Below, in pieces: positions 72-10,658 of a stretch of 49,387 bases of DNA. Made by a program: the position numbers and the translations under genes. The notes under the pieces were generated by a model. That model was not told the DNA's origin and did no database searches. It saw nothing but the letters and a program-made list of their open reading frames with translations. Within the stretch, counting starts at the first letter, position 1. Every line of letters begins with the position of its first letter. The DNA is from a virus, in IMG/VR virus record IMGVR_UViG_3300010885_019455, positions 1 through 49,387 of that record; one strand, written 5' to 3'.

Positions 72-112
72 ACAAAACGAATACGATTGGGTGTTGATAA
101 TAATAATGTAAC
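72..112 (+). promoter_or_regulatory. Repeated phage promoter-like motif, copy 1
   Basis: First of eight copies of a bipartite motif: an A-rich stretch ending in (C/T)ACGA, then TGATAATAATAATGTAAC starting exactly 13 nt after the first base of (C/T)ACGA. Here TACGA is at 82-86 and TGATAA starts at 95. It lies 15 nt before the 127 gene. The fixed spacing and the positions in front of genes or RNAs indicate a promoter; which sigma factor reads it is inference. Confidence 0.7.
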
Positions 113-126
113 TAAAAAATAATAAT

Positions 127-405
127 ATGAAAGTAGTAAAAAGTAGAATTGAGTATTTTAGCGTTGATTACGATAGAAGAGTATTAATTATTAAAGAGGG
201 TATTGTAATTGTGGGTATTGATTTCATGCAAGGTGATGAACCGTATGACTTTACGGGTAAAAACGGCGACCCTAGTATCTTAGCGGTTTACAATGCATCA
301 AATCCGTATTTATCCGGCGATACCGAAAACGAATGTGTTAATCAAGCGATTAATATATGGTTTGAATTAACGGTTATTAATCCACTATATGAAAAAATAG
401 TATAA
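127..405 (+). CDS. Small hypothetical early protein (92 aa)
   Basis: A 92-residue acidic protein with no domain I recognise, the first gene after promoter copy 1. It begins MKVVKSRIEY; the first seven codons closely resemble the start of the gene at 2079 (MQVVKSKDVV), although the rest does not obviously match. There is no signal peptide or membrane segment. The start is the first ATG in the frame, with an A/T-rich leader and no Shine-Dalgarno sequence. Function unknown. Confidence 0.7.
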   Translation: MKVVKSRIEYFSVDYDRRVLIIKEGIVIVGIDFMQGDEPYDFTGKNGDPSILAVYNASNPYLSGDTENECVNQAINIWFELTVINPLYEKIV

Positions 406-436
406 TAAACATGTTGTCCACTAAAAATAGTGAAAT

Positions 437-477
437 ACAAAGCAAATACGATGGTAAAATGATAATAATAATGTAAC
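437..477 (+). promoter_or_regulatory. Repeated phage promoter-like motif, copy 2
   Basis: TACGA at 447-451 and TGATAATAATAATGTAAC starting at 460: the same 13-nt spacing as copy 1. It sits in the 86-nt gap between the 127 gene and the 492 gene, right before the latter. Confidence 0.7.
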
Positions 478-491
478 TAAATATATATAAT

Positions 492-665
492 ATGAAAGAA
501 TTTCAAGTAGAAGTGTGTGAAACACTTATTAGAATAGTAACGGTTGAAGCTCAAAGTGAAGAACAAGCACTTGAGTTTGTGAGATACGATTATAACAATG
601 CAGAATTAGTGTTGGATAGCGATGACTTTTTTGATGTAGACTTTAACTTAGTAAACCAAGATTAA
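492..665 (+). CDS. DpnD/PcfM-like small protein (57 aa)
   Basis: A 57-residue acidic protein beginning MKEFQVEVCETLIRIVTVEA and continuing with SEEQALEFV and VLDSDDFFDVDF. This alternating pattern matches what I remember of the DpnD/PcfM-like C-terminal domain (V-E-V-x-E-T-L-x-R-x-V-x-V-x-A near the start, L-D-x-x-D-F near the end), a short domain found in phages and mobile elements with no settled function. It is the first gene after promoter copy 2 and is followed after 1 nt by the 667 gene. The assignment is from memory of the family. Confidence 0.65.
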   Translation: MKEFQVEVCETLIRIVTVEAQSEEQALEFVRYDYNNAELVLDSDDFFDVDFNLVNQD

Positions 666-666
666 T

Positions 667-801
667 ATGAGGGAAGTTTTTGGAATAGTGGTAGGCGGTT
701 GTATATGTGCAATACTAATAATATGTGTGGTAACTTTTGCATACGCCTTATACGACCACATTAAAGAACAAGAAAATAATAGAAAAGATGGAAGAATATA
801 G
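667..801 (+). CDS. Small single-span membrane protein (44 aa)
   Basis: A 44-residue protein with one hydrophobic segment at about residues 5-28 (rich in I, V, G and C), followed by a charged tail ending KDGRI. This predicts one transmembrane helix with a short polar C-terminus. It starts 1 nt after the DpnD/PcfM-like gene and its end overlaps the next gene by 14 nt in another frame, which suggests translational coupling. Function unknown. Confidence 0.55.
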   Translation: MREVFGIVVGGCICAILIICVVTFAYALYDHIKEQENNRKDGRI

Positions 802-919
802 CGACTGCTGTGGTGCACCAAGACATCACATATTTGATGAATTATGCGGTGATTGTTTAGAACACTGTTCATTTGACGAAGAAGAAGATTATCCTTGCGA
901 TATAATAAATGAATTTTAA
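788..919 (+). CDS. Cys-rich zinc-ribbon-like protein (43 aa)
   Basis: A 43-residue protein with DCCGAP near the N-terminus and LCGDCLEHC about ten residues later. The paired cysteines (CC...CxxC) resemble the small phage zinc-ribbon proteins of the CCGA...CxxCxEH type. I chose the ATG at 788 rather than one at 737 in the same frame because the extra 17 residues would lie wholly inside the membrane-protein gene and are not zinc-ribbon-like. The rest is acidic (DEEEDY). Function unknown. Confidence 0.6.
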   Translation: MEEYSDCCGAPRHHIFDELCGDCLEHCSFDEEEDYPCDIINEF

Positions 920-931
920 TTAATAAGAAAT

Positions 932-1240
932 ATGAGTAACAAAATAACAACGGATTCGGTGGATGCATTTTTTGCCGGTCAAAAATTTAATAGAGAAAAT
1001 ATGCGGGTTGACGTATATGATGATGCATCAAGACTTGTATTGCATGGTAATGTTATTGCAATAAAAAATTACAAAGGTGTTTATATATCAACTCAAGGAT
1101 GGGAAACACGTACTACATTCTCAAGACTAAGAGAAGTGTTACGTAGAGTATCACCTAGCTCAAGACTGTATACTAAGCGGTACGTATTATACCTTAATGA
1201 CAAAGAATGGAATGGTAACTTTAAACTAATCAACGACTAA
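932..1240 (+). CDS. Conserved phage protein of unknown function (102 aa)
   Basis: A 102-residue protein with TTDSVDAFFAGQKFNREN, then LHGNVIA, ISTQGWETRTTFSRL and YLNDKEWNG. The order DAFxxGxxFxxxN / LHGNxIA / ISTxGWxTxTTxxRL / YLNxKEWxG recalls a family seen in many phages of Gram-positive and Gram-negative hosts that has no known function. It starts 12 nt after the previous stop and is soluble by appearance. Confidence 0.65.
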   Translation: MSNKITTDSVDAFFAGQKFNRENMRVDVYDDASRLVLHGNVIAIKNYKGVYISTQGWETRTTFSRLREVLRRVSPSSRLYTKRYVLYLNDKEWNGNFKLIND

Positions 1241-1242
1241 TT

Positions 1243-1344
1243 ATGAAACTAAGAAAAAGATTTATCCGAAGAATATTAACAAGAATTGCATTTGAATTCC
1301 GTGAAGGTGCACGAAATGCATCATACATAATCAATAACCCATAA
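1243..1344 (+). CDS. Very small basic protein (33 aa)
   Basis: A 33-codon reading frame (start MKLRKRFIRRILTR, end INNP) located 2 nt after the 932 gene and 11 nt before the 1356 gene. It is strongly basic, with Arg/Lys in the first half. The tight fit between neighbours supports it as a gene, but size alone makes it uncertain. Function unknown. Confidence 0.4.
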   Translation: MKLRKRFIRRILTRIAFEFREGARNASYIINNP

Positions 1345-1355
1345 AATATATAACT

Positions 1356-1619
1356 ATGACTAGAATTAACGAATTAACTAAAACAGATAGAGTAGAATTT
1401 TTTAATGAAATTGTAAAACAACACAACCTCGACCATGCAATAAGTTGTGTTAGAGATAACAACCGATTATCCGAGTGTTGTGCATTCCATAAAACCGGTA
1501 ACGAATCCTATTGGAGAGATTTATACGACAATGGTTATCCTACAGTTGAAATGACTATAACTGAAATTGAGAAAAAACTAGGTCTAATGCGTAACACATT
1601 GAGAATAATCATTAACTAA
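1356..1619 (+). CDS. Small hypothetical protein (87 aa)
   Basis: An 87-residue protein starting MTRINELTKTDRVEFFNEIV. It carries a CC pair (SECCAFHK) and an earlier Cys (SCVRDN), but not a clear zinc site. No homologous family recognised. It is the last gene before promoter copy 3 and probably part of the transcript started at copy 2. Confidence 0.6.
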   Translation: MTRINELTKTDRVEFFNEIVKQHNLDHAISCVRDNNRLSECCAFHKTGNESYWRDLYDNGYPTVEMTITEIEKKLGLMRNTLRIIIN

Positions 1620-1661
1620 TACAGAACAAACACGAACCCATATTGATAATATAAATGTAAC
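1620..1661 (+). promoter_or_regulatory. Repeated phage promoter-like motif, copy 3
   Basis: CACGA at 1631-1635 and TGATAATATAAATGTAAC starting at 1644, again with 13-nt spacing. It lies in the 58-nt gap between the 1356 and 1678 genes. Confidence 0.7.
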
Positions 1662-1677
1662 TAATAAATAATATACT

Positions 1678-1854
1678 ATGAATAAAATTAAATTTTTACC
1701 GGCTAACAGATTACTACTAAACAAAGTACCATACAAAGGCTACACTGTTGGTAACTTGCCGCCATCATTCGCATTCATATACGATGCTGATAACGAAACT
1801 GAAGGCATAACATCATTTTTTAATTACAAAGGTTTAACTTATATACGAGAATAA
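1678..1854 (+). CDS. Small hypothetical protein (58 aa)
   Basis: A 58-residue protein starting MNKIKFLPANRLLLNK and ending GLTYIRE, the first gene after promoter copy 3. The next gene starts 1 nt after its stop. There is no recognisable motif, signal peptide or membrane segment. Function unknown. Confidence 0.55.
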   Translation: MNKIKFLPANRLLLNKVPYKGYTVGNLPPSFAFIYDADNETEGITSFFNYKGLTYIRE

Positions 1855-1855
1855 T

Positions 1856-2077
1856 ATGACAATGAAAGAACTAATCGCCTATAGCGAAAACAAACGTAAG
1901 CAAAAATGTTTGCAGCACCACAAAGCCGTTGTTGCTATACACGGTAACTGTAAGCCGTTCACTCAAAAGCAGTACAACCAAGTGACCACAAAACAAAAAG
2001 CTAATTTCACTAAAGGTAAAAGCTTTGCATTCAAGGGGTTATGGAATCATAATAATATTAATTTAAAAACAGTATAA
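1856..2077 (+). CDS. Small basic hypothetical protein (73 aa)
   Basis: A 73-residue, very basic protein rich in Lys, Gln and His (MTMKELIAYSENKRKQK and a later KQKANFTKGK segment). The charge suggests possible nucleic-acid contact, but no known fold is visible. It is packed 1 nt from both neighbours, in the copy 3 operon. A second in-frame ATG two codons downstream could be the true start. Confidence 0.55.
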   Translation: MTMKELIAYSENKRKQKCLQHHKAVVAIHGNCKPFTQKQYNQVTTKQKANFTKGKSFAFKGLWNHNNINLKTV

Positions 2078-2078
2078 T

Positions 2079-2291
2079 ATGCAAGTAGTAAAAAGTAAAG
2101 ATGTAGTTGTAGGTCAATCATATTATTTAGACCCTACTATGACCACTTATGGCAAGGTAGTAAGCAATGAAAACGGTAGTGTATACTTTGAATTAGAATC
2201 AAAAAACGACGGTTATTATATAGCTGAAGACAATAATACAGTAGGCTTCCATGTAAGCCCTTATATTGAATTTATATTTAAAAACAACTAA
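2079..2291 (+). CDS. Small hypothetical protein (70 aa)
   Basis: A 70-residue protein that looks mostly beta-strand (GQSYYLDP, GKVVSNENGSVYFELE, FHVSPYIEFIF). The N-terminal codons resemble those of the 127 gene (M-x-V-V-K-S). No function recognised. It starts 1 nt after the previous stop and ends 2 nt before the 2294 gene. Confidence 0.6.
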   Translation: MQVVKSKDVVVGQSYYLDPTMTTYGKVVSNENGSVYFELESKNDGYYIAEDNNTVGFHVSPYIEFIFKNN

Positions 2292-2293
2292 CT

Positions 2294-2443
2294 ATGAGTA
2301 ACAGAGATAAAGCAATGCTTGAGTGTGACAAATTCCACTTATGGCTACGAGATAAAGTACAAAATGTGCATTACGCTAACAACGAAAAAATGGCTGAAGC
2401 GTATGCTAGAGTTTATAAAAGTGCGATGACAAATACAGTCTAA
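2294..2443 (+). CDS. Small hypothetical protein (49 aa)
   Basis: A 49-residue, probably helical protein starting MSNRDKAMLECDKFHLWLRD, the last gene of the copy 3 run. Its stop codon overlaps the upstream part of promoter copy 4. No known family recognised. Confidence 0.5.
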   Translation: MSNRDKAMLECDKFHLWLRDKVQNVHYANNEKMAEAYARVYKSAMTNTV

Positions 2444-2472
2444 ACACGAATAACAATTGATAATAATAATAT
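2437..2472 (+). promoter_or_regulatory. Repeated phage promoter-like motif, copy 4
   Basis: CACGA at 2445-2449 and TGATAATAATAATATATG starting at 2458, with 13-nt spacing. The final ATG of that string, at 2473, is the start of the next gene. If the motif contains the -10 element, the transcript would have a very short leader or none. Confidence 0.65.
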
Positions 2473-2676
2473 ATGACAACGATACAAAGCAAACTAAGAG
2501 ACAAAGCATTCTCAAAAATGAGTAATCTTACAGTAGAAGTAAGAGATATAGAAAACGATATAAAATATGGTTTATCTATATTAGATGAAGATCAACTACA
2601 AAACATGGTAAGAAAAACAAAAGAAGATTTACAGTTATGGAGTTACATAGCTGAACTAGTAGAAAAAGATATTTAA
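2473..2676 (+). CDS. Small helical hypothetical protein (67 aa)
   Basis: A 67-residue protein of heptad-like helical composition (MTTIQSKLRDKAFSKMSN, then VRDIENDIKYGLSILDEDQL). It probably folds as a helical hairpin or coiled coil. The ATG lies only 15 nt after the start of TGATAA in promoter copy 4. Function unknown. Confidence 0.6.
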   Translation: MTTIQSKLRDKAFSKMSNLTVEVRDIENDIKYGLSILDEDQLQNMVRKTKEDLQLWSYIAELVEKDI

Positions 2677-2696
2677 TAACAAACTAAAAAAAAATT

Positions 2697-3059
2697 ATGG
2701 AATCAGTAAACAGAACATTCGAATTATGTAAAGAATCAATTAAGTTATCACCGTCAAGTATTTTCTCTAACGACGACGTAACAAGACTTATTGAGCAAGT
2801 TAAACAAGATGTATTAAAATTAATTGAAGAAGAAAAACCAGCAGAAGCACCAGAATTAACAGCATTCAAACTAGATGTATTACAAGCATTCAGACATGAA
2901 CTAGACGATACCCGCTATGGCGAATATGTTGATCAAGATTCAGCGGAGTTTAATATAAGCTATGACAATAGAATTGAACTATCAAACATTGATATAAATG
3001 TAGATGAATTAGAAAACGCTTTAGAGCGAGCATTTGAAAGAGCAGACGCAGGTAACTAA
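2697..3059 (+). CDS. Acidic hypothetical protein (120 aa)
   Basis: A 120-residue, strongly acidic protein. The N-terminal half is helical with an EEEKPAEAPE hinge; the C-terminal half holds DTRYGEYVDQDSAEFNISYD and a Glu-rich helix ending AFERADAGN. No family recognised. It lies between the 2473 and 3074 genes with 14-20 nt gaps, so is probably cotranscribed from promoter copy 4. Confidence 0.6.
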   Translation: MESVNRTFELCKESIKLSPSSIFSNDDVTRLIEQVKQDVLKLIEEEKPAEAPELTAFKLDVLQAFRHELDDTRYGEYVDQDSAEFNISYDNRIELSNIDINVDELENALERAFERADAGN

Positions 3060-3073
3060 TAAATATATATACT

Positions 3074-3507
3074 ATGAACTTAAGAAACTTATTAAAAGAA
3101 ATCAATGATAACGGTGGTGTATCATACAATATTACAACAGGCGATTATAATCCTACTAACGGTTACATGGTATCATTACCAGGTTATGAAATGACTTTTG
3201 ATAAAGTTAGCGAGCAAGATATAAAAGATTATATATCTAAAACTTAGAGGCTTTGCTGTTAGAATATGATAATGCTTACTTTGGAGCATGGGTTGATCGA
3301 GATCTAATATACTTCGATGTATCAGTAAAAATTGATAATTTATATGAAGCATGTCATGCAGGTATTGTTAATGAACAATTAGCAATCTACGACAATGCAA
3401 ATGCGGTTGCTATACACCTGCCGTCTCCTCAAAAGTCTGGCACATTTACGCAACAAGCAACATATAATAAACAAGCAGCAGATCGTGTTGTTGAGGCATA
3501 TACTTGA
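3074..3507 (+). pseudogene. Split gene: two halves of one phage protein family, broken by a frameshift
   Basis: Residues 1-57 are read from ATG 3074 and end at a stop at 3245-3247; they include GGVSYNITTG and the motif GYMVSLPGYE. The rest (about 85-88 codons) continues in the -1 frame from about 3244 to 3507 and includes AYFGAWVDRDLIYFDVSVKI and QLAIYDNANAVAIHL. In family members I remember from phages of Gram-positive bacteria, GYMVSLxGYE, a G-x-W-V-x-x-G/D-x-x-Y-x-D-x-S segment and an IAIYD segment lie in one continuous protein of about 140 residues. The joint sits at a run of four A's followed by CTTAG. It could be a real indel, a sequencing or assembly slip, or recoding. The second half alone could start at TTG 3253. 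Confidence 0.7.
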
Positions 3508-3534
3508 GCAAGAACTTATATTGATAATAATAAT
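3501..3534 (+). promoter_or_regulatory. Repeated phage promoter-like motif, copy 5, driving a noncoding stretch
   Basis: CAAGA at 3509-3513 (one mismatch to CACGA) and TGATAATAATAATGTT starting at 3522, with the standard 13-nt spacing. Unlike other copies, no gene follows for 350 nt; the first downstream element is a foldable RNA starting near 3535. This copy is the best argument that the motif is transcriptional rather than translational. Confidence 0.65.
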
Positions 3535-3623
3535 GTTGATCTCTGGGACTACGTAAATTCATTCCGCTAAGTTTGGTTGTAGTCGAATTGCAAATAAAGA
3601 ATTTAACCGGGTTGCAAATCAAC
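3535..3623 (+). ncRNA. Predicted structured RNA upstream of the tRNA-like gene
   Basis: An 89-nt segment closed by GTTGAT (3535-3540) pairing with ATCAAC (3618-3623), with an inner helix GACTAC (3547-3552) / GTAGTC (3579-3584). AATTC (3556-3560) in the loop of that helix can pair with GAATT (3585-3589), which would make a pseudoknot. The 5' end lies 13 nt after TGATAA of promoter copy 5. It lacks a T-arm, so it is not a tRNA. Expression and function are unproven; it may be a processed leader. Confidence 0.4.
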
Positions 3624-3626
3624 ATA

Positions 3627-3750
3627 AGTCAGGTGGCGGAATTGGTAGACGCTAAAAAACTGCACTGAGGTTAAGCGATCCTCACATTAAATAAAAAATT
3701 GATCAACGCAGGAGTGCGGGAGCTTACAGGTTCGAGTCCTGTCCTGACTA
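3627..3750 (+). tRNA. tRNA-Leu-like gene with an abnormal, enlarged middle region
   Basis: Both ends are canonical for tRNA-Leu. The acceptor stem is AGTCAGG (3627-3633) with CCTGACT (3743-3749) and discriminator A3750. A D-arm GCG...CGC around AATTGGTAGA follows, and the T-arm is ACAGG-TTCGAGT-CCTGT (3726-3742). The 73 nt between the D- and T-arms are about twice the expected length. One helix, CTGCA (3660-3664) with TGCGG (3715-3719), would place CTGAGG, with a GAG (Leu) anticodon, in the loop, followed by about 43 extra nt that contain a TGAGG/CCTCA hairpin (3666-3684). No CCA is encoded. It may be a degenerate tRNA, one with a small insertion or intron, or a tRNA-like decoy. Confidence 0.6.
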
Positions 3751-3755
3751 CAAAT

Positions 3756-3829
3756 TAAGGTGCTTATCGCTGCTGGGCATTTCTCGGTAGTATCTGGATA
3801 TAAGCTAAGTGTGAGATCGTCAAGCCTTA
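3756..3829 (+). ncRNA. Predicted structured RNA downstream of the tRNA-like gene
   Basis: A 74-nt segment closed by TAAGG (3756-3760) and CCTTA (3825-3829), with an inner perfect helix GCTTAT (3762-3767) / ATAAGC (3800-3805). It starts 5 nt after the tRNA-like gene and ends just before the A-rich part of promoter copy 6. It holds no open frame of note. It could be part of the same primary transcript as the tRNA-like RNA or act as a processing or terminator-like structure. Confidence 0.35.
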
Positions 3830-3869
3830 CAAAACAAACACGAATATTAATTGATAATAATAATGTAAC
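3828..3869 (+). promoter_or_regulatory. Repeated phage promoter-like motif, copy 6
   Basis: CACGA at 3839-3843 and TGATAATAATAATGTAAC starting at 3852: 13-nt spacing and a perfect match to the consensus. It precedes the 3885 gene by 15 nt and separates the RNA stretch from the next gene run. Confidence 0.75.
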
Positions 3870-3884
3870 TAAAACAAATTAACT

Positions 3885-4325
3885 ATGAATATATTTTATT
3901 TAGACAGAGATCCTGTTAAAGCGGCAGAACAACATTATAATAAGCATGTTGTCAAAATGGTATTAGAAGCAGCGCAATTACTTTGTACTGCCCATCATTT
4001 ATCCGGCAATCCAGATGATGTACCATATAAGAAAACACATATGAATCATCCATCAGCAGTATGGGTACGATCATCACGAGCTAATTACTTATGGTGTTAT
4101 GAATATATGTTAGCGTTAGGAGCAGAATATACACGTCGTTATAAAAAGCATCATTTAACTATTGCAAAGTGTCGCGGTGTATTATCTAAAGTACCTCATG
4201 CTATACATGCTGAAGATTTTTGCGACCCGCCCCAATGTATGCCAGCCGAATACAAAATGGCCGATGCAGTTGACGGTTATAAAAAATATTACGAAATTGG
4301 TAAAGCTCACTTAAAAGATAAATAA
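3885..4325 (+). CDS. Conserved phage DKHVVKM-type protein, distantly endonuclease V-like (146 aa)
   Basis: A 146-residue protein starting MNIFYLDRDPVKAAEQHYNK, followed by HVVKMVLEAAQLLCTAHH, KKTHMNHPSAVWVRSS, a helix ending EYTRRY, and a late MPAEYKMADAV...YKKYYEIGKAH. This pattern is common in cyanophages and other marine phages. The order of HP-x-x-x-W, EYxxR and MPxEY...YxxYY is reminiscent of T4 endonuclease V (pyrimidine-dimer glycosylase), but the catalytic Thr2 of that enzyme is absent (position 2 is Asn), so activity should not be assumed. First gene after promoter copy 6; the next starts 1 nt after its stop. Confidence 0.65.
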   Translation: MNIFYLDRDPVKAAEQHYNKHVVKMVLEAAQLLCTAHHLSGNPDDVPYKKTHMNHPSAVWVRSSRANYLWCYEYMLALGAEYTRRYKKHHLTIAKCRGVLSKVPHAIHAEDFCDPPQCMPAEYKMADAVDGYKKYYEIGKAHLKDK

Positions 4326-4326
4326 T

Positions 4327-4572
4327 ATGGAACAAACAGCAATAGAATTAGAAAATATATTGAATATTCTTTACAATATAAAAGATGATGTTTTTTATTT
4401 TAAAGAGTATGGAAATGATTTAATATCAAGTTTTGTTGAACAAGCCAAACAAATTGAAAAACAACAACAAGTTTATAGTGAAGAAGATATGAATGATTAT
4501 GCAAATTATCGTTTACTAATTAAGAAATCATTAAGCCCTAAAGAATGGTTTGAACAATTTAAAAAGAAATAA
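4327..4572 (+). CDS. Small protein with EWFEQFKKK tail (81 aa)
   Basis: An 81-residue helical, acidic protein with QQQVYSEEDMNDYANYRL and a C-terminal LSPKEWFEQFKKK. The Y-S-E-E-x-M-x-x-Y-A segment plus a terminal E-W-F-E-x-F-K-K-K tail recurs in many small Bacteroidota phage proteins; the 10171 protein here has a related ending (QDWYEHYKNK). Function unknown. It starts 1 nt after the previous stop and ends 3 nt before the next ATG. Confidence 0.65.
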   Translation: MEQTAIELENILNILYNIKDDVFYFKEYGNDLISSFVEQAKQIEKQQQVYSEEDMNDYANYRLLIKKSLSPKEWFEQFKKK

Positions 4573-4575
4573 GAT

Positions 4576-4815
4576 ATGAAAAAAGTAGTAACAATAAATT
4601 ATATGGATATTGAACTTGTTGTAACAGGTTATTATGAAGAAGGTACAGATTCTGTGCAATATGATGCGGATTTTCTTGGCTATCCAGGCGATCCTGCAAC
4701 ATTTGAAGCAGATGAAATATACGTAAGCGATTCTAATACAAACATTATAGATATGTTTGTTAGTTTACAATTACAAGAGATTGAAGATTTAGTATTAATT
4801 AAATTAACAGAATAA
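4576..4815 (+). CDS. Conserved small acidic phage protein (79 aa)
   Basis: A 79-residue acidic, beta-rich protein: VTGYYEEGTDSVQYDADFLG, then PATFEADEIYVSDSNTNIID and a C-terminal helix LQLQEIEDLVL. The TGYYE, P-A-x-F-E-x-x-E-I-Y and LxEIEDL pieces recall a small protein family spread across phages; role unknown. Tightly packed (2-3 nt gaps) in the copy 6 operon. Confidence 0.6.
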   Translation: MKKVVTINYMDIELVVTGYYEEGTDSVQYDADFLGYPGDPATFEADEIYVSDSNTNIIDMFVSLQLQEIEDLVLIKLTE

Positions 4816-4817
4816 CT

Positions 4818-5021
4818 ATGAAAAGAACTAAAGATTTAATAGATCAGATGATGGAATACGAATCAGGATTGTTGAGTGATCCTGAAACATTGGAGATGTT
4901 TTCAACAATTGTAAAAGAAAAAATGCAATATAGTTTGCAAGGACATTATGGTAGGACTGTTACTAGTCTTATAATAGATGGTTGGTTAGATAGACACGGC
5001 CAAATTTTAAAAGAAATTTAA
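4818..5021 (+). CDS. Conserved small phage protein (67 aa)
   Basis: A 67-residue protein with IDQMMEYESGLLSDPETLEM and SLQGHYGRTVTSLIIDGWLD. The YESGxLS...ETLxxF and LQGHYGRTxxxLI segments match a well-spread phage protein family with no known function. It follows the 4576 gene by 2 nt. Confidence 0.65.
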   Translation: MKRTKDLIDQMMEYESGLLSDPETLEMFSTIVKEKMQYSLQGHYGRTVTSLIIDGWLDRHGQILKEI

Positions 5022-5034
5022 AAACAAATAAGAT

Positions 5035-5232
5035 ATGAAACAATTCCTAACATTCACAATAACATGGATAGCCAGTAATCTATCAATACCATTCTGGATG
5101 GTTGGTCACGTACATTTAACTGTTAATGTATATGAAGACATACACGAAATAATAGCTTCATTGGGAATGAATATAATTGTTGCTATAGGATTTATAATTG
5201 AATACAAAACAAACACGAACCAAAAACGATAA
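5035..5232 (+). CDS. Small membrane protein with two spans (65 aa)
   Basis: A 65-residue protein with hydrophobic segments at about residues 4-24 (FTITWIASNLSIPFWMVG) and 42-56 (LGMNIIVAIGFII), joined by a polar loop with HLTVNVYEDIHE, and a basic tail. Two transmembrane helices are likely. Its last codons overlap promoter copy 7. Function unknown; an envelope role is possible. Confidence 0.6.
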   Translation: MKQFLTFTITWIASNLSIPFWMVGHVHLTVNVYEDIHEIIASLGMNIIVAIGFIIEYKTNTNQKR

Positions 5233-5237
5233 TATAT
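5204..5237 (+). promoter_or_regulatory. Repeated phage promoter-like motif, copy 7
   Basis: CACGA at 5214-5218 and CGATAATATATATG starting at 5227, 13-nt spacing with one mismatch in TGATAA. It overlaps the end of the 5035 gene. The next gene's ATG (5238) sits exactly where the motif's own ATG lies in the other copies, which suggests a leaderless or near-leaderless message. Confidence 0.6.
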
Positions 5238-5504
5238 ATGAGATTAAACGTAAGACTATCACAAGAAGATATTAATAAAATAGCTGATACAGTTGTAGAA
5301 AAAATACTAAGGAAACAATTAGAATATGATTATGCTTATGATCAATCATATCAACAGAATTTAACTTATGATATGGTATTACAACAAATGGTTGGATTAC
5401 AATTATTATTATCAGAGTATGTAACAACTGAAGATTATGAGAAAGCAGAGCTTACTAAAATGAAAATAAAACAACTTAAAGTAATATTAGATAAATTAAA
5501 ATGA
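5238..5504 (+). CDS. Helical protein with a UVR-like motif (88 aa)
   Basis: An 88-residue helical protein. It starts MRLNVRLSQEDINKIADTVV and ends with TTEDYEKAELTKMKIKQLK. The latter resembles the UVR motif of UvrB/UvrC and Clp regulators (D-Y-E-K-A-x-x-x-x-x-x-I-x-x-L), which mediates helix-hairpin pairing. In small phage proteins this motif gives no firm function. First and only gene directly after promoter copy 7. Confidence 0.55.
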   Translation: MRLNVRLSQEDINKIADTVVEKILRKQLEYDYAYDQSYQQNLTYDMVLQQMVGLQLLLSEYVTTEDYEKAELTKMKIKQLKVILDKLK

Positions 5505-5577
5505 TAATTAAAATGCGACGATAGGTTGTTAATTAGTTATAGTAGCAGGCTAATGTCACACTTTTAAATTTAATATA

Positions 5578-6198
5578 ATGCATGATGAAAGAAATATAGA
5601 ATACTTAAATAAACGAAGAATATTATATAGACAAGATCCTGTTAATGATAAGTGTTCAACAGAGTATGATTGGGGTTATTACTTTGAAAATGGAACTCGC
5701 GAATGCTATACATTATTTAACTCACGAGCTCAAATCAACACATATAAGTCATTGAAATGGCATTTGTATGTATTATGGTATCTTAATCATTCAATGAGTC
5801 AGGATCAGTTTGAAACGCTTGCAAAATATATATGTACAAGATCTAATGGGTTTGTTACTTTTAATATATCAGAGCATGCTTTAGAAAATATATTATATGA
5901 TGTTAGCATGGTTGATTTAGAAAAACCACCACCAAACAAATTGCGTAAGATTATATTTAAAGACAATACAGGTTTAACAACGTCTGAAAAACTATCTATT
6001 GTGGGACATATAATTGGTAAAAGTAAAAAAGTAACTGAATCTGATATATATGAAGCAATGATTTACATGCATGATCTATCCCAGAAAATAACAATAAAGA
6101 ATATTGCAGAGCATTTTAAATGTTCAACAAGAACAATACATCGTAATATGAGTAATGAACTTAAAAAAGAAAAAGAATTATTAAATAAACAATTATGA
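5578..6198 (+). CDS. HTH-containing phage regulator-like protein (206 aa)
   Basis: A 206-residue protein. The N-terminal two thirds have aromatic-rich, unrecognised sequence (TEYDWGYYFENGTRECYTLF, SLKWHLYVLWYLNHSMS). The C-terminal 60 residues hold a helix-turn-helix: MIYMHDLSQKITIKNIAEHF followed by KCSTRTIHRNMSNELKKEKE. This pattern is shared with proteins I recall from Bacteroidota and marine phages; it suggests DNA binding, perhaps transcription control. It overlaps the next gene by 4 nt and heads the run leading to the sigma factor. Upstream, a TGTCACA at 5554-5560 matches the half-site of the operator at 7172. Confidence 0.65.
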   Translation: MHDERNIEYLNKRRILYRQDPVNDKCSTEYDWGYYFENGTRECYTLFNSRAQINTYKSLKWHLYVLWYLNHSMSQDQFETLAKYICTRSNGFVTFNISEHALENILYDVSMVDLEKPPPNKLRKIIFKDNTGLTTSEKLSIVGHIIGKSKKVTESDIYEAMIYMHDLSQKITIKNIAEHFKCSTRTIHRNMSNELKKEKELLNKQL

Positions 6199-6401
6199 AA
6201 TTAATACCAATACAAAAAGCAAAAGCATTGTATAATCATTATGATGATTTGTTAAATAAGGATTTTATGAATCCAATTATAAATCACAATCAATTAATAG
6301 AGTGCTCATTAATAGCAGTTAATTTAGTTTTAAACTCAAATGATATTGATGGTGAATATTCTTATTATTTAGAAATTAAAAAAGAAATTGAAAACCTATG
6401 A
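6195..6401 (+). CDS. Small conserved phage protein, paralog of the 14114 protein (68 aa)
   Basis: A 68-residue helical protein starting MKLIPIQKAKALYNHYDDLL and ending with ECSLIAVNLVLNSN...YYLEIKKEIENL. The ending aligns with the 14030 protein (RAVNLVINSVELE...YWQEVKNEIEKL), so these are paralogs of a family common in Bacteroidota phages. Its ATG overlaps the stop of the HTH gene and its stop overlaps the sigma-factor start by 4 nt, indicating translational coupling. Function unknown. Confidence 0.65.
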   Translation: MKLIPIQKAKALYNHYDDLLNKDFMNPIINHNQLIECSLIAVNLVLNSNDIDGEYSYYLEIKKEIENL

Positions 6402-7156
6402 AAAGTTACAACTTACAAAATTACTTAAGATATAAGAAAGATGTTATTGTTGGGCAACCAATTAATAAAGCATGGAGTGAATATACCAGAGATGAATTGA
6501 TTAACAAGTTTTTACCATTAGTTGAAAACATATCTAGAAAATTTTCTACCTCACAACAAGCATCAGGTGTAATGGATATTACAGATCTAATACAAGAAGG
6601 AAGTTATGGATTAATACAAGCAGTCAATAGATTAGACTGGACACAATTAAACGATTCTAAGGACATAGAAAAAACATTGAAGTCATTCTTATCAAAAAGA
6701 ATTAAAGGCTCGATTAGAAGAGCATTAGATATTAATAGAGGCAATATAAAACTGCCAGAACATAAATTAATTGAGATCAGAAAAGATAATGGCCAAAATA
6801 AAGAAATGGTTGCAATGTTTTTTAATTCTATATTCTTAAGCATCGACGAACAGCTTAATGATGAAGACGAAGAGAATATGTTATACCAAGTTAAAGATGA
6901 TTCTGAACCGTATAATATATGTATTATGAATGCTTATCTCACTTCATTATTAAAAAGACATTTGAATCAAGAAGAATACGATGTGTTAAGATTAAGTTAC
7001 GGTTTAGATTGTGATAAACATTCTGCTGTAGCAATTGCAGAGAAGTTAAACTTCCAAGGTAAAAGTTCTTATGTAAGAGTTTACGAATTAAAAAAGCAAG
7101 CAATCGCTAAATTAATCAATAACGTCGACTCCTCACAAGTACTTGACTTTCTTTAA
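6398..7156 (+). CDS. Phage sigma-70-family factor
   Basis: A 252-residue sigma factor. Region 2 is at about residues 31-81 (DELINKFLPLVENISRKF, DITDLIQEGSYGLIQAVNRL). A region-3-like linker resembling primary sigma factors (LSIDEQLNDEDEENMLYQV) is at about 147-165, and region 4 with its HTH is at about 182-242 (LTSLLKRHLNQEEYDVLRL, AVAIAEKL). It would redirect host RNA polymerase to phage promoters, with the eight repeated motifs at 72-10089 as the obvious candidates (inference). It overlaps the previous gene by 4 nt. Region 1 is absent and the core-binding and -10-reading helices look degenerate, as is normal for phage sigma factors. Confidence 0.85.
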   Translation: MKSYNLQNYLRYKKDVIVGQPINKAWSEYTRDELINKFLPLVENISRKFSTSQQASGVMDITDLIQEGSYGLIQAVNRLDWTQLNDSKDIEKTLKSFLSKRIKGSIRRALDINRGNIKLPEHKLIEIRKDNGQNKEMVAMFFNSIFLSIDEQLNDEDEENMLYQVKDDSEPYNICIMNAYLTSLLKRHLNQEEYDVLRLSYGLDCDKHSAVAIAEKLNFQGKSSYVRVYELKKQAIAKLINNVDSSQVLDFL

Positions 7157-7171
7157 GTTAAATTAAAAATC

Positions 7172-7200
7172 TGTCACAAATAAGGTATATATTTGTGACA
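7172..7200. promoter_or_regulatory. Palindromic operator overlapping a host-type promoter
   Basis: A perfect 11-bp inverted repeat: TGTCACAAATA (7172-7182), 7-nt spacer, TATTTGTGACA (7190-7200). The right arm overlaps TATATTTG at 7188-7195, an exact match to the Bacteroidota -7 element TAnnTTTG. No T-run follows, so it is not a terminator. It lies between the sigma factor (stop 7156) and the ERF gene (ATG 7249), and fits a repressor or activator site controlling the recombination-replication genes. A clear -33 element was not found. Confidence 0.65.
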
Positions 7201-7248
7201 AAACACGTAATTATATTAATAAGAACATTAACAATTAAATCAAATTAT

Positions 7249-7812
7249 ATGGCAACAAAAACGAATGAAAAAGAGTTAACACTAAATGAAAAGTTAGCCA
7301 CAATACAAACCAAGTTTAAATCTAAGAAGTCTAGGTTTAATTCTTTTGGTAAGTACAATTTTAGATCTGCTGAAGATATATTAGAAGCAATCAAACCGTA
7401 CTTGCTTGAGCTTGGCGTATCAGTTGTAGTAACTGAAAGACTTTTAACCGGTCATGATTCAATTTTTCCTATTATGGAAACTACAGCAATCATATCTGAT
7501 AACTTAAGTAATATTACAGCAACAGCAATTGTAGGAGTTGACTTAGAACAAAAAGGTATGCAGATGCCTCAGAAGTTTGGATCAGCATCAAGTTATGGTA
7601 AAAAGTATGCGCTTGGTAATCTATTATTAATTGATGATACTCAAGATGCAGATGCTACAAATAATCATGATACTAAAAAGCCTGCGACAACTAAACCAAA
7701 ATTAGAAGGTGAAGCTTTAGTTAAAGCAAAAGAATATTTAGAGAAAGGTGGTAGCTTAGATGCTATTAAAACTAAATATGATGTATCACCTGAAATATTA
7801 GCAACTCTATGA
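7249..7812 (+). CDS. ERF-family single-strand annealing protein
   Basis: A 187-residue protein with the ERF-family core: LATIQTKFKSKKSRFNSFGK followed by YNFRSAEDILEAIKPYL, then MQMPQKFGSASSYGKKYALG and LLIDDTQDAD. ERF proteins anneal complementary single strands in phage recombination and end repair. I start it at ATG 7249, not at a GTG at 7195 in the same frame, because the extra 18 residues would lie in the operator-promoter region and do not look like ERF sequence. After about residue 145 comes a Lys/Thr-rich linker and a short C-terminal helical unit. It overlaps the exonuclease gene by 4 nt (ATGA), giving an annealase-exonuclease pair. Confidence 0.85.
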   Translation: MATKTNEKELTLNEKLATIQTKFKSKKSRFNSFGKYNFRSAEDILEAIKPYLLELGVSVVVTERLLTGHDSIFPIMETTAIISDNLSNITATAIVGVDLEQKGMQMPQKFGSASSYGKKYALGNLLLIDDTQDADATNNHDTKKPATTKPKLEGEALVKAKEYLEKGGSLDAIKTKYDVSPEILATL

Positions 7813-8549
7813 CAGAAAAAGAAATCAAAGCAGCATTAAAAAGATTGGATAACGACGAAGATTATTATGGAGAGTTTGGTAAACAGTTCTTATCAAATTC
7901 AAACATAAGATCTTTGTTGAAGGATCCATTATCTTTTAATCAACCAATCACAAACAATCCTAATTTAATAATAGGTAGTTACTTCCATACATTAATACTT
8001 GAACCTGATAAACTAGAACGTATAAAAATTATCGATGCATCAACCCGAAATACTACAAAGTATAAAGAATTATCTGAAGGTGAAATGTGTTTGTTACAAC
8101 ACGAAGCAGATAGTATACAGTTATTAAGAGATACCGTTATGGAAAACAAAATAGCACGTGATCTTATACAAGACATTGATGTTGAATATGAAGTACCAGG
8201 TATATTAGAACTAAGTGGCGAATGGTGGAAATTAAAAGCAGATATTAAAAATAATACGCAATCATTAGTAGTAGATCTTAAAACAACTTCTGATATTGAT
8301 AAGTTTAGATATTCAGCAAAAGAATATAATTATGATAGTCAAGCATATATTTATTCTACATATTTTAATATGGACATGGTATTTATAGCTGTTGATAAGA
8401 AGTCTAGAAAGATTGGTATTTACGATTGTTCACCACAATTTTTAGAATCAGGTAAAGACAAAGTAGAACGAGCAGTGGAAGCTTACAGATTATTCCACAA
8501 AACAGAGAATTTTGATATTAAAAATTATTGTATAACCGAAACGCTTTAA
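7809..8549 (+). CDS. PD-(D/E)XK exonuclease (RecE/exonuclease VIII-like)
   Basis: A 246-residue nuclease-like protein. The core is around residues 135-180: WWKLKADIKNNTQSLVVDLK, TTSDIDKF and a Q-A-Y-Y-type helix (YNYDSQAYIYSTYF). The spacing D (KAD) - VDLKTT - QAxxY is that of phage exonucleases related to RecE (PDDEXK_1/DUF3799-like). It would resect double-stranded ends so the overlapping upstream ERF protein can anneal them. An N-terminal SYFHTLILEP motif, also typical of this family, supports the call. 5' overlap with ERF is 4 nt. Confidence 0.8.
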   Translation: MTEKEIKAALKRLDNDEDYYGEFGKQFLSNSNIRSLLKDPLSFNQPITNNPNLIIGSYFHTLILEPDKLERIKIIDASTRNTTKYKELSEGEMCLLQHEADSIQLLRDTVMENKIARDLIQDIDVEYEVPGILELSGEWWKLKADIKNNTQSLVVDLKTTSDIDKFRYSAKEYNYDSQAYIYSTYFNMDMVFIAVDKKSRKIGIYDCSPQFLESGKDKVERAVEAYRLFHKTENFDIKNYCITETL

Positions 8550-8553
8550 TTAA

Positions 8554-8766
8554 ATGAGTACATTTTTAAGTAGATTACAAGAAGAACAAGAAGAATTATC
8601 AGACAAAGTATTTAAGCTGCATGATTTTGTAAATAACAGTCCTATATATAATACAACAAGTATTGTACAACAAAAATTGTTGCTTACTCAATTATTAGCA
8701 ATGAAAATATATTTAAATACATTAGACGAAAGACTACTTGATTTATCACCCCAAACAAATAACTAA
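8554..8766 (+). CDS. Small helical-hairpin protein, possible Acb2/Tad1-type sponge (70 aa)
   Basis: A 70-residue all-helical protein: MSTFLSRLQEEQEELSDKVF, KLHDFVNNS, then VQQKLLLTQLLAMKIYLNTL and DERLLDL. The pattern F-L-x-R-L-x-x-E-x-x-E-L-x-x-K-x-x-K-L-x-x-F, a short loop, then Q-x-x-L-L-x-x-Q-L-x-A-M-x-x-Y-x-x-x-L-x-x-R-L matches small phage proteins recently grouped with the Acb2/Tad1 hairpin domain, whose studied members bind cyclic nucleotide signals of CBASS or Thoeris defence. This is from memory of the pattern; ligand binding is not shown. It starts 4 nt after the exonuclease stop. Confidence 0.6.
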   Translation: MSTFLSRLQEEQEELSDKVFKLHDFVNNSPIYNTTSIVQQKLLLTQLLAMKIYLNTLDERLLDLSPQTNN

Positions 8767-8791
8767 AATAATTAACTAAACCCTTTAAACC

Positions 8792-8962
8792 ATGAAAAAA
8801 GTAATTTTAACATTAGCAACAGTAACAACGTTATTAGTATCTTGTAATGACAAGAAAGCAGAAGCAGCACAAACAACAGACACGGTCAAAGTGGCTGATT
8901 CAATGAGTACAGATTCTACAACAGTAGATTCAACACAAATTGATACAACAAAAACAAAGTAA
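8792..8962 (+). CDS. Small phage-encoded lipoprotein (56 aa)
   Basis: A 56-residue protein with a clear lipoprotein signal peptide: MKKVILTLATVTTLLVSCND. The lipobox is LVSC with Cys18 as the lipidated residue. The mature part is only about 39 residues, rich in Ser, Thr and Asp (DSMSTDSTTVDSTQIDTTKT), so it looks like an unstructured, surface-tethered tail. Phage lipoproteins of this size are often superinfection-exclusion factors (as in T5 or TP-J34), but that role is inference. It lies between the hairpin-protein gene and the SSB-like gene. Confidence 0.7.
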   Translation: MKKVILTLATVTTLLVSCNDKKAEAAQTTDTVKVADSMSTDSTTVDSTQIDTTKTK

Positions 8963-8989
8963 TTATTAATTAATAAACAATTAAATCTT

Positions 8990-9313
8990 ATGGCTAGTAT
9001 AATAAAAGCGAGCATCAACTTAAATGAAATTCCAAAACACAAGATTATCGATGGTAAGAAAGGAAAATACTTACCCATCACAATTACATTAAATGATGAA
9101 GTAGATCAGTTTGGCAATCAAGGGCCAGTGCAGGTTGAACAATCAAAAGAAGAAAGAGAATCAAAAGCAGCAAAAGTTTATCTTGGTAATGTAAAAGTTG
9201 TATGGACTAATGGTCAAAATGTAGAAGCTGCTCCAAGAACTGATGGTCAATCCGCTCCTACCCCAAAACGAGCACCGGCTCCTGTAGTCGAGGATGATTT
9301 ACCTTTTAACTAA
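8990..9313 (+). CDS. Single-stranded DNA-binding-like protein (107 aa)
   Basis: A 107-residue protein with an N-terminal beta-rich half (ASIIKASINLNEIPKHKI, GKYLPITITLND, AKVYLGNVKVVW) and a Pro/Ala-rich linker ending in VVEDDLPFN. The acidic tail with D-D-L-P-F is the hallmark of bacterial and phage SSB proteins, which recruit partners through it. The beta-rich part fits an OB fold, though short. Its location between the recombination module and the primase-helicase supports an SSB role. Confidence 0.7.
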   Translation: MASIIKASINLNEIPKHKIIDGKKGKYLPITITLNDEVDQFGNQGPVQVEQSKEERESKAAKVYLGNVKVVWTNGQNVEAAPRTDGQSAPTPKRAPAPVVEDDLPFN

Positions 9314-9326
9314 GGGTTTTTAGTAA

Positions 9327-9914
9327 TCCCGTAAATACAAAACTAAATGAAAATTAAGTGCATAGGCTGTAATGAAACATTACATATATCTGAATTCTAC
9401 AAACACAAAGCCGGCGTGCATGGAGTGCTTGCGAGATGTAAGAAATGTGTAAAGGTACAGCGAAGTAAAAATTACGAATATAGAATAGCAGACCCTAAGT
9501 TTGTGCAATCTGAACGTCAAAGAGGCAGAGAAAAATATGCTAGATTAAATTATAAAGAAATTAATAGAGAAAAAATGCAAGATCCAGCTAGAAAATTAAA
9601 ACATAGAATACGAACCGCCGCATATTCTTTATTAAACAAAAGAGTAAATTCTAGTACTTTATTAGGCTGTTCTCATGATGAATTTTTTAAACATATAGAA
9701 TCAAAATTCAAAAACGGAATGAGTTGGGATAATATAAATGAATGGCATTTAGATCATATAGTTCCTTTAAGTTGGTGTAGTACAAATGAAGAATTATTTA
9801 TATATTCGCATTATTCAAATATACAGCCTTTATTCGCAATAGACAATTTAAGAAAAAGCGATAACTATATAGGTTAATTTTAAATTATAAATGTACCTAT
9901 AGCGCTTCCCGTAA
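9327..9914. repeat. 8-bp direct repeats flanking the HNH gene
   Basis: TCCCGTAA occurs at 9327-9334, in the gap before the HNH gene, and at 9907-9914, just after it. They may be traces of insertion of the endonuclease gene. At 8 bp in AT-rich DNA chance is possible, but the motif is GC-rich for this genome. Confidence 0.3.
9347..9877 (+). CDS. HNH endonuclease, free-standing
   Basis: A 176-residue protein. The N-terminus is a zinc-ribbon (CIGCNETLHISEFYKH and ARCKKCVKVQ: CxxC...CxxC). The middle is basic and helical, and the C-terminus holds the HNH nuclease core: SWDNINEWHLDHIVPLSW followed by NIQPLFAIDNLRKSDNYIG. The W-H-L-D-H-I-x-P and N-x-x-P-L-x-x-x-x-N-x-x-K pattern is that of phage HNH enzymes, most of which are homing-type. 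It sits between the SSB-like gene and the primase-helicase. Confidence 0.85.
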   Translation: MKIKCIGCNETLHISEFYKHKAGVHGVLARCKKCVKVQRSKNYEYRIADPKFVQSERQRGREKYARLNYKEINREKMQDPARKLKHRIRTAAYSLLNKRVNSSTLLGCSHDEFFKHIESKFKNGMSWDNINEWHLDHIVPLSWCSTNEELFIYSHYSNIQPLFAIDNLRKSDNYIG

Positions 9915-9919
9915 GAATA

Positions 9920-9942
9920 GCCTTTAGGTCTTTTTTTAAGGC
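9920..9942 (+). promoter_or_regulatory. Hairpin after the HNH gene
   Basis: GCCTT (9920-9924) pairs with AAGGC (9938-9942) around a 13-nt loop containing seven T's. It lies in the 230-nt gap between the HNH gene and the truncated primase start. It may be a weak terminator or a leader structure; a second GCCTTTAG copy lies near 9987. Confidence 0.35.
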
Positions 9943-9998
9943 AGAACAAATGTTTGGAACAGCGAAAGCAGAACTTAGTTTAGACAGCCTTTAGTAGT

Positions 9999-10033
9999 TA
10001 GTTAGACCCCATTAATTGGGGTTTTTCTAACTA
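9999..10033 (+). terminator. Intrinsic terminator before promoter copy 8
   Basis: ACCCC (10006-10010) and GGGGT (10018-10022) form a stem with a 7-nt loop, followed by a T-run (10022-10026). An outer pairing TAGTTAGA (9999-10006) with TCTAACTA (10026-10033) is possible, so alternative folds exist. It would end transcription from the ERF-HNH run shortly before promoter copy 8. Confidence 0.75.
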
Positions 10034-10048
10034 TAATAAGTAGCGCTT

Positions 10049-10090
10049 ACAATCTGAACACGATTGTATTATGATAATATATATGTAACA
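10049..10090 (+). promoter_or_regulatory. Repeated phage promoter-like motif, copy 8
   Basis: CACGA at 10059-10063 and TGATAATATATATGTAAC starting at 10072, with 13-nt spacing. It follows the terminator at 9999-10033 directly, a terminator-promoter boundary. It would drive the small genes and the primase-helicase. Confidence 0.7.
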
Positions 10091-10105
10091 AATTAAATTT
10101 AATAA

Positions 10106-10147
10106 ATGCAAACAACAGAGATAAACGGTTTCTTGCTATACACATAA
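10106..10147 (+). pseudogene. Truncated duplicate of the primase-helicase start (13 codons)
   Basis: An ATG-to-stop frame encoding MQTTEINGFLLYT. The primase-helicase at 10910 begins MTIQTTEINGFLIDN, so nine residues (QTTEINGFL) are shared and then the copy stops. It lies 16 nt downstream of promoter copy 8, where the primase start would be expected. Between the copy and the intact gene are three small genes. I read it as a remnant or partial duplication from insertion of those genes. Confidence 0.7.
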
Positions 10148-10170
10148 ATAAACTAAAAACAAATAATATT

Positions 10171-10449
10171 ATGAAAGAATTAACAAAATGCTATTGTGGT
10201 CATACTACAACTTGTGATTGTGGACCTGAAGAACCTAAACAAGAAAAACTTGAAGAAGCTGCTAAAAGATATTCTTATGGAGGCAGAGAAGGAGGTCACA
10301 GAACACCATTTCTTGAAGGTGTTAAATGGCAACAAGAAAGAAGTTATAGTGATATGCAAGAGTATGCAGAATTTTGCATTGAATGTGATAGGAAACAAAT
10401 GCCTTTATTATTAGTTCAAGATTGGTACGAACATTATAAAAACAAATAA
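10171..10449 (+). CDS. Small phage protein with Cys-rich N-terminus and EWFEQFKKK-like tail (92 aa)
   Basis: A 92-residue protein. The N-terminus MKELTKCYCGHTTTCDCGPE has four cysteines in a possible zinc site. The middle, AAKRYSYGG...FLEGVKWQQE, and the end, YSDMQEYAEFCIEC...VQDWYEHYKNK, match the small-protein family of the 4327 gene (YSEEDMNDYA...EWFEQFKKK). It lies between the truncated primase start and the intact primase gene, in a segment that looks inserted. Function unknown. Confidence 0.65.
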   Translation: MKELTKCYCGHTTTCDCGPEEPKQEKLEEAAKRYSYGGREGGHRTPFLEGVKWQQERSYSDMQEYAEFCIECDRKQMPLLLVQDWYEHYKNK

Positions 10450-10453
10450 AATT

Positions 10454-10627
10454 ATGGAAACACAAACAAAAGAAAAATTAGACTATTCCTCTTGGAGAAA
10501 AAAGAATACAGTAATGTTAATAAGAGGTGGATGGTTTGGAAATCAAACCCCTTGTTATGTAGGTGATGCAAGACCTAAAACAGAAAAAGAATGGGAAGTA
10601 TTGTTTGAAGAATTTAAAAACAAATAA
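10454..10627 (+). CDS. Small hypothetical protein with FEEFKNK tail (57 aa)
   Basis: A 57-residue protein starting METQTKEKLDYSSWRKKNTV and ending KEWEVLFEEFKNK. The end resembles the EWFEQFKKK-type tails of the 4327 and 10171 proteins, possibly by exchange of gene ends. Its last codons belong to the first unit of a 26-bp tandem duplication. Function unknown. Confidence 0.5.
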   Translation: METQTKEKLDYSSWRKKNTVMLIRGGWFGNQTPCYVGDARPKTEKEWEVLFEEFKNK

Positions 10628-10658
10628 GATTAGAACAATTTAAAAACAAATAAGATTA
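10607..10658 (+). repeat. 26-bp tandem duplication
   Basis: Two head-to-tail 26-bp units, 10607-10632 and 10633-10658, differ at one base (G or C at the fourth position). Unit 1 encodes the last codons and stop of the 10454 gene; unit 2 repeats them as a noncoding leader and ends on the first base of the next ATG (10658). It is a recent duplication of a gene-end/leader module. Confidence 0.85.

Follow-up and report, generated by a model that had tools for sequence, protein, structure and literature searches.

Putative early promoters with a -10 element of their own in a clade of Bacteroidota podoviruses, possibly read by a phage sigma factor

IMG/VR virus record IMGVR_UViG_3300010885_019455, analysed here over its full length of 49,387 nucleotides (the window), carries on its + strand a series of short sites made of two blocks at a fixed distance. 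Comparison of the window with its relatives gives good support to the view that this motif is an early promoter, composed of a -10 element GATAAT(A) and an upstream 11-bp direct repeat. The best explanation, which we hold at about an even chance, is that these sites, called class 1 below, are the early promoters of a clade of podoviruses of Bacteroidota and that their -10 element is most likely read by a FliA-like sigma factor encoded by the phage.

An earlier reading of the sequence alone had listed eight sites, all on the + strand and with constant block spacing. All eight sequences are present at these positions on this strand, with block 1 and block 2 in a single register, seven of them being firm and one (3501) doubtful. 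A matrix built from the eight sites and run over both strands of the window, a check that this sequence-only reading had proposed, scores them at 29-50 bits (38-50 bits for the seven firm ones), and no other place on either strand exceeds 8.6 bits; this best non-site overlaps a true site and the others reach at most 8.0. The maximum in 20 Markov-shuffled windows was 12.5. When each site was left out in turn, it still ranked above every non-site. Site 3501/3522 then scores 5.5 bits, which is within the chance range; it has AAG in place of ACG, lacks the TACA block and has no counterpart in the corresponding stretch of L085, a relative whose sigma factor is 99% identical. For these reasons, seven sites are considered as solid and the eighth as degenerate and uncertain. 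The core ACG-N10-GATAATA was found eight times on the + strand and never on the - strand, 0.15 being expected; these matches include a fortuitous one (40157) within a late gene but not site 3522. The late operon contains no true site, as had been claimed. Aligned on GATAATA, the seven sites read TACARANNNRA[CT]ACGA-N9-GATAATA. The sites, with the open reading frames (ORFs) that they precede and a neighboring terminator, are the following:

71 to 108, + strand: putative class-1 early promoter 1, TACAAAACGAATACGA (71-86), -10 GATAAT at 96-101, predicted +1 G108; precedes ORF 127-405; orthologous site at 346 in L085.
436 to 473, + strand: putative class-1 early promoter 2, -10 at 461-466, predicted +1 G473; precedes ORF 492-665; conserved in L086.
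1620 to 1657, + strand: putative class-1 early promoter 3, -10 at 1645-1650, predicted +1 G1657; precedes ORF 1678-1854; conserved in L085 and L086.
2434 to 2471, + strand: putative class-1 early promoter 4, -10 at 2459-2464, predicted +1 A2471; the ATG of ORF 2473-2676 lies 2 nt further on (near-leaderless); conserved in L085 and L086.
3498 to 3535, + strand: doubtful eighth site, with TGATAATAATAATG retained but a degenerate upstream block (ATATACTTGAGCAAGA); a tRNA-like sequence lies downstream of it.
3828 to 3865, + strand: putative class-1 early promoter 6, -10 at 3853-3858, predicted +1 G3865; precedes ORF 3885-4325; near-identical in L085, L086 and L232.
5203 to 5240, + strand: putative class-1 early promoter 7, -10 at 5228-5233, predicted +1 at about 5238-5240, on the ATG of ORF 5238-5504; the helix-turn-helix (HTH) and sigma genes come next, with no further site in between; also in L085, L086 and L087.
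10004 to 10027, + strand: predicted intrinsic terminator GACCCCATTAATTGGGGTTTTTC, immediately 5' of promoter 8; the fold of 9998-10030 has -15.2 kcal/mol, z -4.6.
10048 to 10085, + strand: putative class-1 early promoter 8, -10 at 10073-10078, predicted +1 G10085; first element of a cassette of small ORFs that is inserted in front of the primase gene.

The orthologue of promoter 7 in L234, at 6791, has the motif variant proper to that genome. The cassette headed by promoter 8 (10038-10906) is inserted before the primase gene by comparison with L084 (8740-8960) and comprises the class-1 promoter, three small ORFs and, at 10107, a truncated repeat of the start of the primase gene.

The motif was counted in 84 loci that carry a related sigma gene. 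In these loci, ACG-N10-GATAATA occurs 391 times on the strand of the sigma gene and once on the opposite strand, and each of the other spacings from N5 to N15 gives at most 14 matches. A control scan of whole records with spacing N9 gave almost no matches, and a scan of the viral collection with a 14-base pattern returned single background matches only. The motif is present in nearly all sigma loci whose upstream sequence is long enough, and de novo pattern counting, with no prior knowledge of the motif, arrived at it in most loci. Eight sigma-less relatives have 0 or 1 copies, every record with the early module has the sigma gene, and so do 24 of 30 long contigs selected by the class-1 pattern alone; in at least three of the six others, the class-1 sites lie near a contig end, where the sigma gene may have been cut off. 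No motif was found in 3.9 kb upstream in L094, nor any clear consensus in L313 and L095. Many IMG/VR contigs are fragmentary, some are misassembled and there is redundancy among them; ORF starts were called mechanically. L084 was considered as a motif-less relative and discarded, its contig being misassembled; close sigma-less relatives were likewise discarded as natural knock-outs, all being fragments devoid of the early module.

The placement of the sites in the relatives is that of promoters. Almost all of them (379 of 399) belong to the early region and precede the sigma gene. Far from occurring equally within coding regions, which the sequence-only reading had named as evidence against it, they avoid them: 3 of 399 are embedded in a + ORF, versus 42% of random positions. 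An ORF starts within 40 nt of 82% of the sites, versus 30% of random positions. The distance from GATAATA to the ATG peaks at 5 nt and at about 25 nt; if GATAAT corresponds to -12..-7, the 5-nt peak would represent leaderless genes whose ATG lies at the predicted +1. This predicted +1 is a purine in 99% of the sites. Early placement, proximity of ORF starts, the leaderless peak and the purine at +1 together lend good support to the proposal that the sites are phage-specific promoters.

The consensus of 355 unique sites is T-37 A-36 C-35 A-34 A/G-33, A-28 A-27 [TC]-26, ACG -25..-23, A-22 and GATAATA -12..-6, this set having been selected on the ACG plus GATAATA core, so that only positions outside the core are informative. 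The two upstream blocks, TACRA-N6-TACGA, form an 11-bp direct repeat from -37 to -22, i.e. one helical turn. Self-identity of the upstream block is 0.64 at a shift of 11, versus 0.16-0.34 at other shifts.

The -7 box of flavobacterial sigma-A is TAnnTTTG (PMC9723704). Upstream of the genes of six sigma-less relatives, this box was found 69 times versus 12.6 expected, and the class-1 core 0 times; upstream of the genes of 67 sigma-carrying loci, it was found 31 times versus 32.4 expected, and the class-1 core 174 times versus 0.5. Whole genomes give the same contrast. Furthermore, two metagenome-assembled genomes (MAGs) in which relatives of the phage were binned use TAnnTTTG and neither of the phage motifs, such binning being no proof of the host. 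From these counts, an early signal of its own appears to have replaced the host-type promoter in the sigma-carrying clade. Class-1 sites share with the sigma-A promoters of Bacteroidota (TTTG / TAnnTTTG, PMC9723704) the presumed host group and a similar distance from the -10 element to the start, but differ from them by their GATAATA, by the absence of TAnnTTTG at -12..-5 and by the absence of a conserved TTTG, a TTTG/TTG at -33 being conserved in lineage B only. The claim that they do not resemble the -33/-7 type of Bacteroidota is supported and can be extended: nowhere in the sigma-carrying relatives is there an enrichment of the host -7 box. The claim that they differ from Escherichia coli sigma-70 promoters in spacing has to be corrected: compared with TTGACA-N16-18-TATAAT, their geometry is similar (GATAAT at -12..-7, TACAAA 19 nt upstream), whereas their bases differ, TATAAT occurring in L365 only, and the ACGA block at -25..-22 is unusual. 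Among other host sigma factors, the sigma-54 and extracytoplasmic function (ECF) motifs of F. psychrophilum were considered and rejected, being unlike class 1 (PMC9723704).

In some relatives, the layout of the motif is kept and its bases are changed jointly at all their sites. These dialects are GATATT in L309, TATAAT in L365, CGAAAC in L342, L355 and L314, AAGGTTGACACGA in L088 and L091, CCCC..AACTA in L333 and, without ACGA, ACGGACTTA in L234/L236 and TTACAAACAAAA in L304, L346 and L363. Such a concerted change of bases suggests one trans-acting reader per genome.

The genes that could provide this reader, or part of it, lie at the end of the early stretch:

5578 to 6198, + strand: HTH protein, 206 aa; adjoins the sigma gene upstream in sigma-carrying relatives.
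6398 to 7156, + strand: phage sigma-70-family factor, 252 aa; best solved relative FliA (1rp3), residues 29-242.

The assignment of the second protein to the sigma-70 family relies on profile and fold (model mean pLDDT 72), and its gene matches at least 326 loci in viral contigs and three in contigs of cellular MAGs. Within this sigma factor, conservation is highest in region 2.4 (0.90), as it is in GATAATA within the motif. Distances between motifs and between sigma factors were compared in 41 genomes by Mantel tests. Divergence of the -13 base and of the region following the -10 element follows sigma divergence (r 0.36, partial 0.30), a result in favor of the sigma factor for these positions. 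In G040 (55767-56520) and G060 (65743-66500), the sigma frame is in two overlapping pieces with stops, which may reflect a frameshift, a pseudogene or an assembly error.

A second motif, TGTAAA-N15-GTAA[T/G]TATA (class 2), lies between the sigma stop codon and the ERF gene, a candidate being found in 82 of 85 sigma loci. It is also found before the late operon, on the opposite strand, for instance at 2894 (-) in L088, 2391 (-) in L091, 1749 (-) in L335 and 4421 (-) in L342, so that a genome typically has it at two places. A leaderless late gene of L347 would set the class-2 -10 element at AA[TG]TAT, preceded by TG and separated from TGTAAA by a 17-nt spacer. The -10 elements of the two classes share A-11, A-8, T-7 and A-6, unlike the host box. 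The window has one such site:

7188 to 7221, + strand: class-2 promoter-like site ahead of the ERF gene; GTAATTATAT at 7207, -35 degenerate with no clear TGTAAA, predicted +1 A7221.

A perfect 11-bp inverted repeat (TGTCACAAATA...TATTTGTGACA, 7172-7202) overlaps this site and is absent there in L085.

From these elements, we infer a mechanism in which host core RNA polymerase would start about 6 nt after GATAATA and produce leaderless or short-leader (about 18-20 nt) mRNAs of small early genes. Class-1 transcription would reach the HTH protein and the phage sigma factor at the end of the early stretch. The GATAAT(A) -10 element would be read by a sigma factor other than the housekeeping one, most likely the FliA-like one of the phage, and the TACRA-N6-TACGA block (-37..-22) by sigma region 4 jointly with a second phage or virion factor, or wholly by the latter. 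Middle and late transcription would be carried by the class-2 sites, which follow the sigma gene and precede the late operon. The first dose of sigma factor would come from leaky transcription or from the virion.

Several observations weigh against a reading of class 1 by the phage sigma factor. Its gene lies downstream of the sites (379 of 399), which implies that it would be needed before being made. Sigma divergence is not reflected in the -35 and ACGA blocks (r 0.08 and 0.00); owing to this failure of the upstream block in the Mantel tests, no co-evolution is claimed. Lineages with AAGGTT, CGAAAC, CCCC..AACTA or ACGGAC have ordinary region 4.2 helices, and L365 has TATAAT yet an unchanged 2.4 helix; residues of region 2.4 that would explain the -12 change of L365 or the -8 change of L309 were looked for and not found. 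Class 2 is unchanged in most lineages with an altered class-1 upstream block, and it sits where a sigma factor acting in mid-infection would be expected. In addition, the co-occurrence of motif and sigma gene opposes one clade to its outgroups and represents few independent events. The phage sigma factor, which the sequence-only reading had named as the natural reader, is thus a plausible one given its presence in every record with the early module, its FliA-like nature and a -10 element that is not of host type, but the position of the sites, the untracked upstream block and the second motif speak against it or are neutral. That reading was right to leave equally open a recognition by host polymerase with another factor.

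According to this alternative, which is somewhat less probable than the favored explanation but has to be taken seriously, class 1 would be read, in the manner of activator-dependent promoters, by host RNA polymerase together with a factor other than the phage sigma, either delivered by the virion or a host DNA-binding protein bound to the 11-bp repeat, and the phage sigma factor would read class 2 only. It would account for class-1 sites lying before the sigma gene, for class 2 lying directly after it and ahead of the late operon, for the invariance of class 2 where class 1 has changed, and for an upstream block whose two halves repeat at a distance of one helical turn and whose divergence does not follow that of sigma. 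It also has a precedent in phage 7-11, whose sigma factor acts on late promoters, the early ones being of host type (PMC8948821). However, activator-dependent promoters of the host sigma factor would be expected to keep traces of TAnnTTTG, and the near-invariant GATAATA lacks the host T-8, T-6 and G-5. Moreover, no such factor was identified, the adjacent HTH protein not tracking the upstream block either (r 0.03 in the distance tests). Two assignments are therefore live, the phage sigma factor reading both classes or class 2 only, and we lean slightly to the former, because the near-invariant -10 element is not host-like and resembles those of FliA and of class 2.

A start-up problem arises under either assignment, as host-type promoters are not in evidence. 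A bolder reading, which we regard as rather unlikely, is that host-type promoters play no part in these phages from the beginning to the end of infection: a virion factor, either the sigma factor or a partner binding the direct repeat, would redirect host polymerase from the first minute, to class 1 and then to class 2 once more sigma factor is made. If so, the clade would constitute a natural series of early-promoter dialects.

It is improbable that the sites are ordinary, just very strong, housekeeping promoters of the host. Their early position, a TATAnATG that overlaps the -10 region and resembles TAnnTTTG, and the TTG found at the right distance in lineage B would fit this proposal. However, TAnnTTTG is enriched in the sigma-less relatives and the two MAG genomes and not in the sigma-carrying phages, TATAnATG taken as a -7 box would place the start codons of about 50 genes upstream of +1, and the TTG is not conserved in other lineages.

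The chances are still lower for a virion RNA polymerase of the kind found in N4 or crAss-like phages, which would be part of the giant late virion protein (18782-28372, 3196 aa). The giant gene is present throughout the clade, with its C-terminal 750 aa conserved, and was not detected in sigma-less relatives, and such an enzyme would solve the start-up problem. The protein nevertheless has no catalytic signatures of either polymerase type, its C-terminal domain matches no family or fold, polymerases included (weak evidence, the model being moderately confident), and the sites have a sigma-70-like geometry. Least probable of all is an intergenic repeat other than a promoter (RNA leader, operator, replication or recombination site), which the long conserved stretch and the operator-like direct repeat might evoke but which agrees poorly with sites on a single strand, before start codons, with a leaderless peak, a purine at +1 and, in one case, a terminator just before.

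The FliA (sigma-28) consensus is TAAA-N15-GCCGATAA, whose -10 contains GATAA. Class-1 sites resemble FliA promoters by this GATAA, FliA being also the closest solved relative of the phage sigma factor, but they have no GCC before it (-14 and -13 are mostly T/A), TAAA is not conserved at the FliA distance and the ACGA block is additional. Among activator promoters, such as those of the PhoB and T4 MotA types, the PhoB layout is similar in having an 11-bp direct repeat that ends about 9 nt before the -10 element; the half-site sequence differs from those of PhoB and MotA, and no cognate activator was identified. Phages 7-11 and phiEco32 have much in common with the phages of this clade: they are lytic podoviruses, they encode a sigma-70-family factor, and they have a conserved promoter in two parts that is specific to the phage and not found in the host. 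Their sigma factors read late (and middle) promoters, the early ones being of host sigma-70 type (PMC8948821, PMC4331800), whereas the repeated motif of the present clade is an early one and there is no enrichment of host-type promoters; class 2 is the positional counterpart of the late promoters of 7-11.

Phages with their own sigma factor usually start from host-type promoters; across this large environmental clade, such promoters appear to be missing and to be replaced by an early signal of the phages' own, which makes the start-up of infection a direct and testable question. With the two motifs, the genes of uncultured phages can be classed as early, middle or late. Furthermore, the variants TACAAAC, CGAAAC, AAGGTT, ACGGAC, CCCC..AACTA, GATATT and TATAAT, together with the sigma variants, form a natural collection for studying how promoters are recognized in Bacteroidota, for which few expression tools exist.

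The terminase and portal proteins of the window match those of Flavobacterium elemo phages, Cellulophaga phages and other flavobacterial podoviruses (30-64%), and a muzzle-like protein has weak crassvirus matches. The + strand encodes ERF, exonuclease, primase-helicase, thymidylate synthase, MazG and ribonucleotide reductase, and the - strand the structural proteins. The size of the relatives (60-70 kb) suggests that the 49 kb record is incomplete.

Several other elements were observed in the early regions. A tRNA-like sequence (GTCAGGTGGCGGA...GGTTCGARTCCTGTCCTGAC) with an enlarged and variable core is found at 3628-3748 in the window, 5383-5503 in L327, 2539-2660 in L299 and 1307-1430 in L234; neither ARAGORN nor Rfam called it, and L085 has a different tRNA-like element at the position of that of the window. 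A hairpin (GTGACRTTAGCC...GGCTAATGTCAC; z about -4) with T's directly behind it recurs at 5508-5570 in the window, between promoter 7 and the HTH and sigma genes, at 3880-3940 in L240 and at 5650-5690 in L232. A conserved non-coding stretch (GGCCTGRCTTTGAAATAGYGTCGGAAGAGTAGACTCCG...), probably a small RNA and without a match in Rfam, comes after a class-1 site in L240 (3761 onwards), L232 (8464), L090 (2144) and L092 (702). Finally, a sigma-less relative (L098, 43500-50000; L099, MW202828.1) carries about 15 copies of the palindrome GTGTCGTTAACGACAC in its early region, together with an annotated repressor gene, and this set looks like an operator array.

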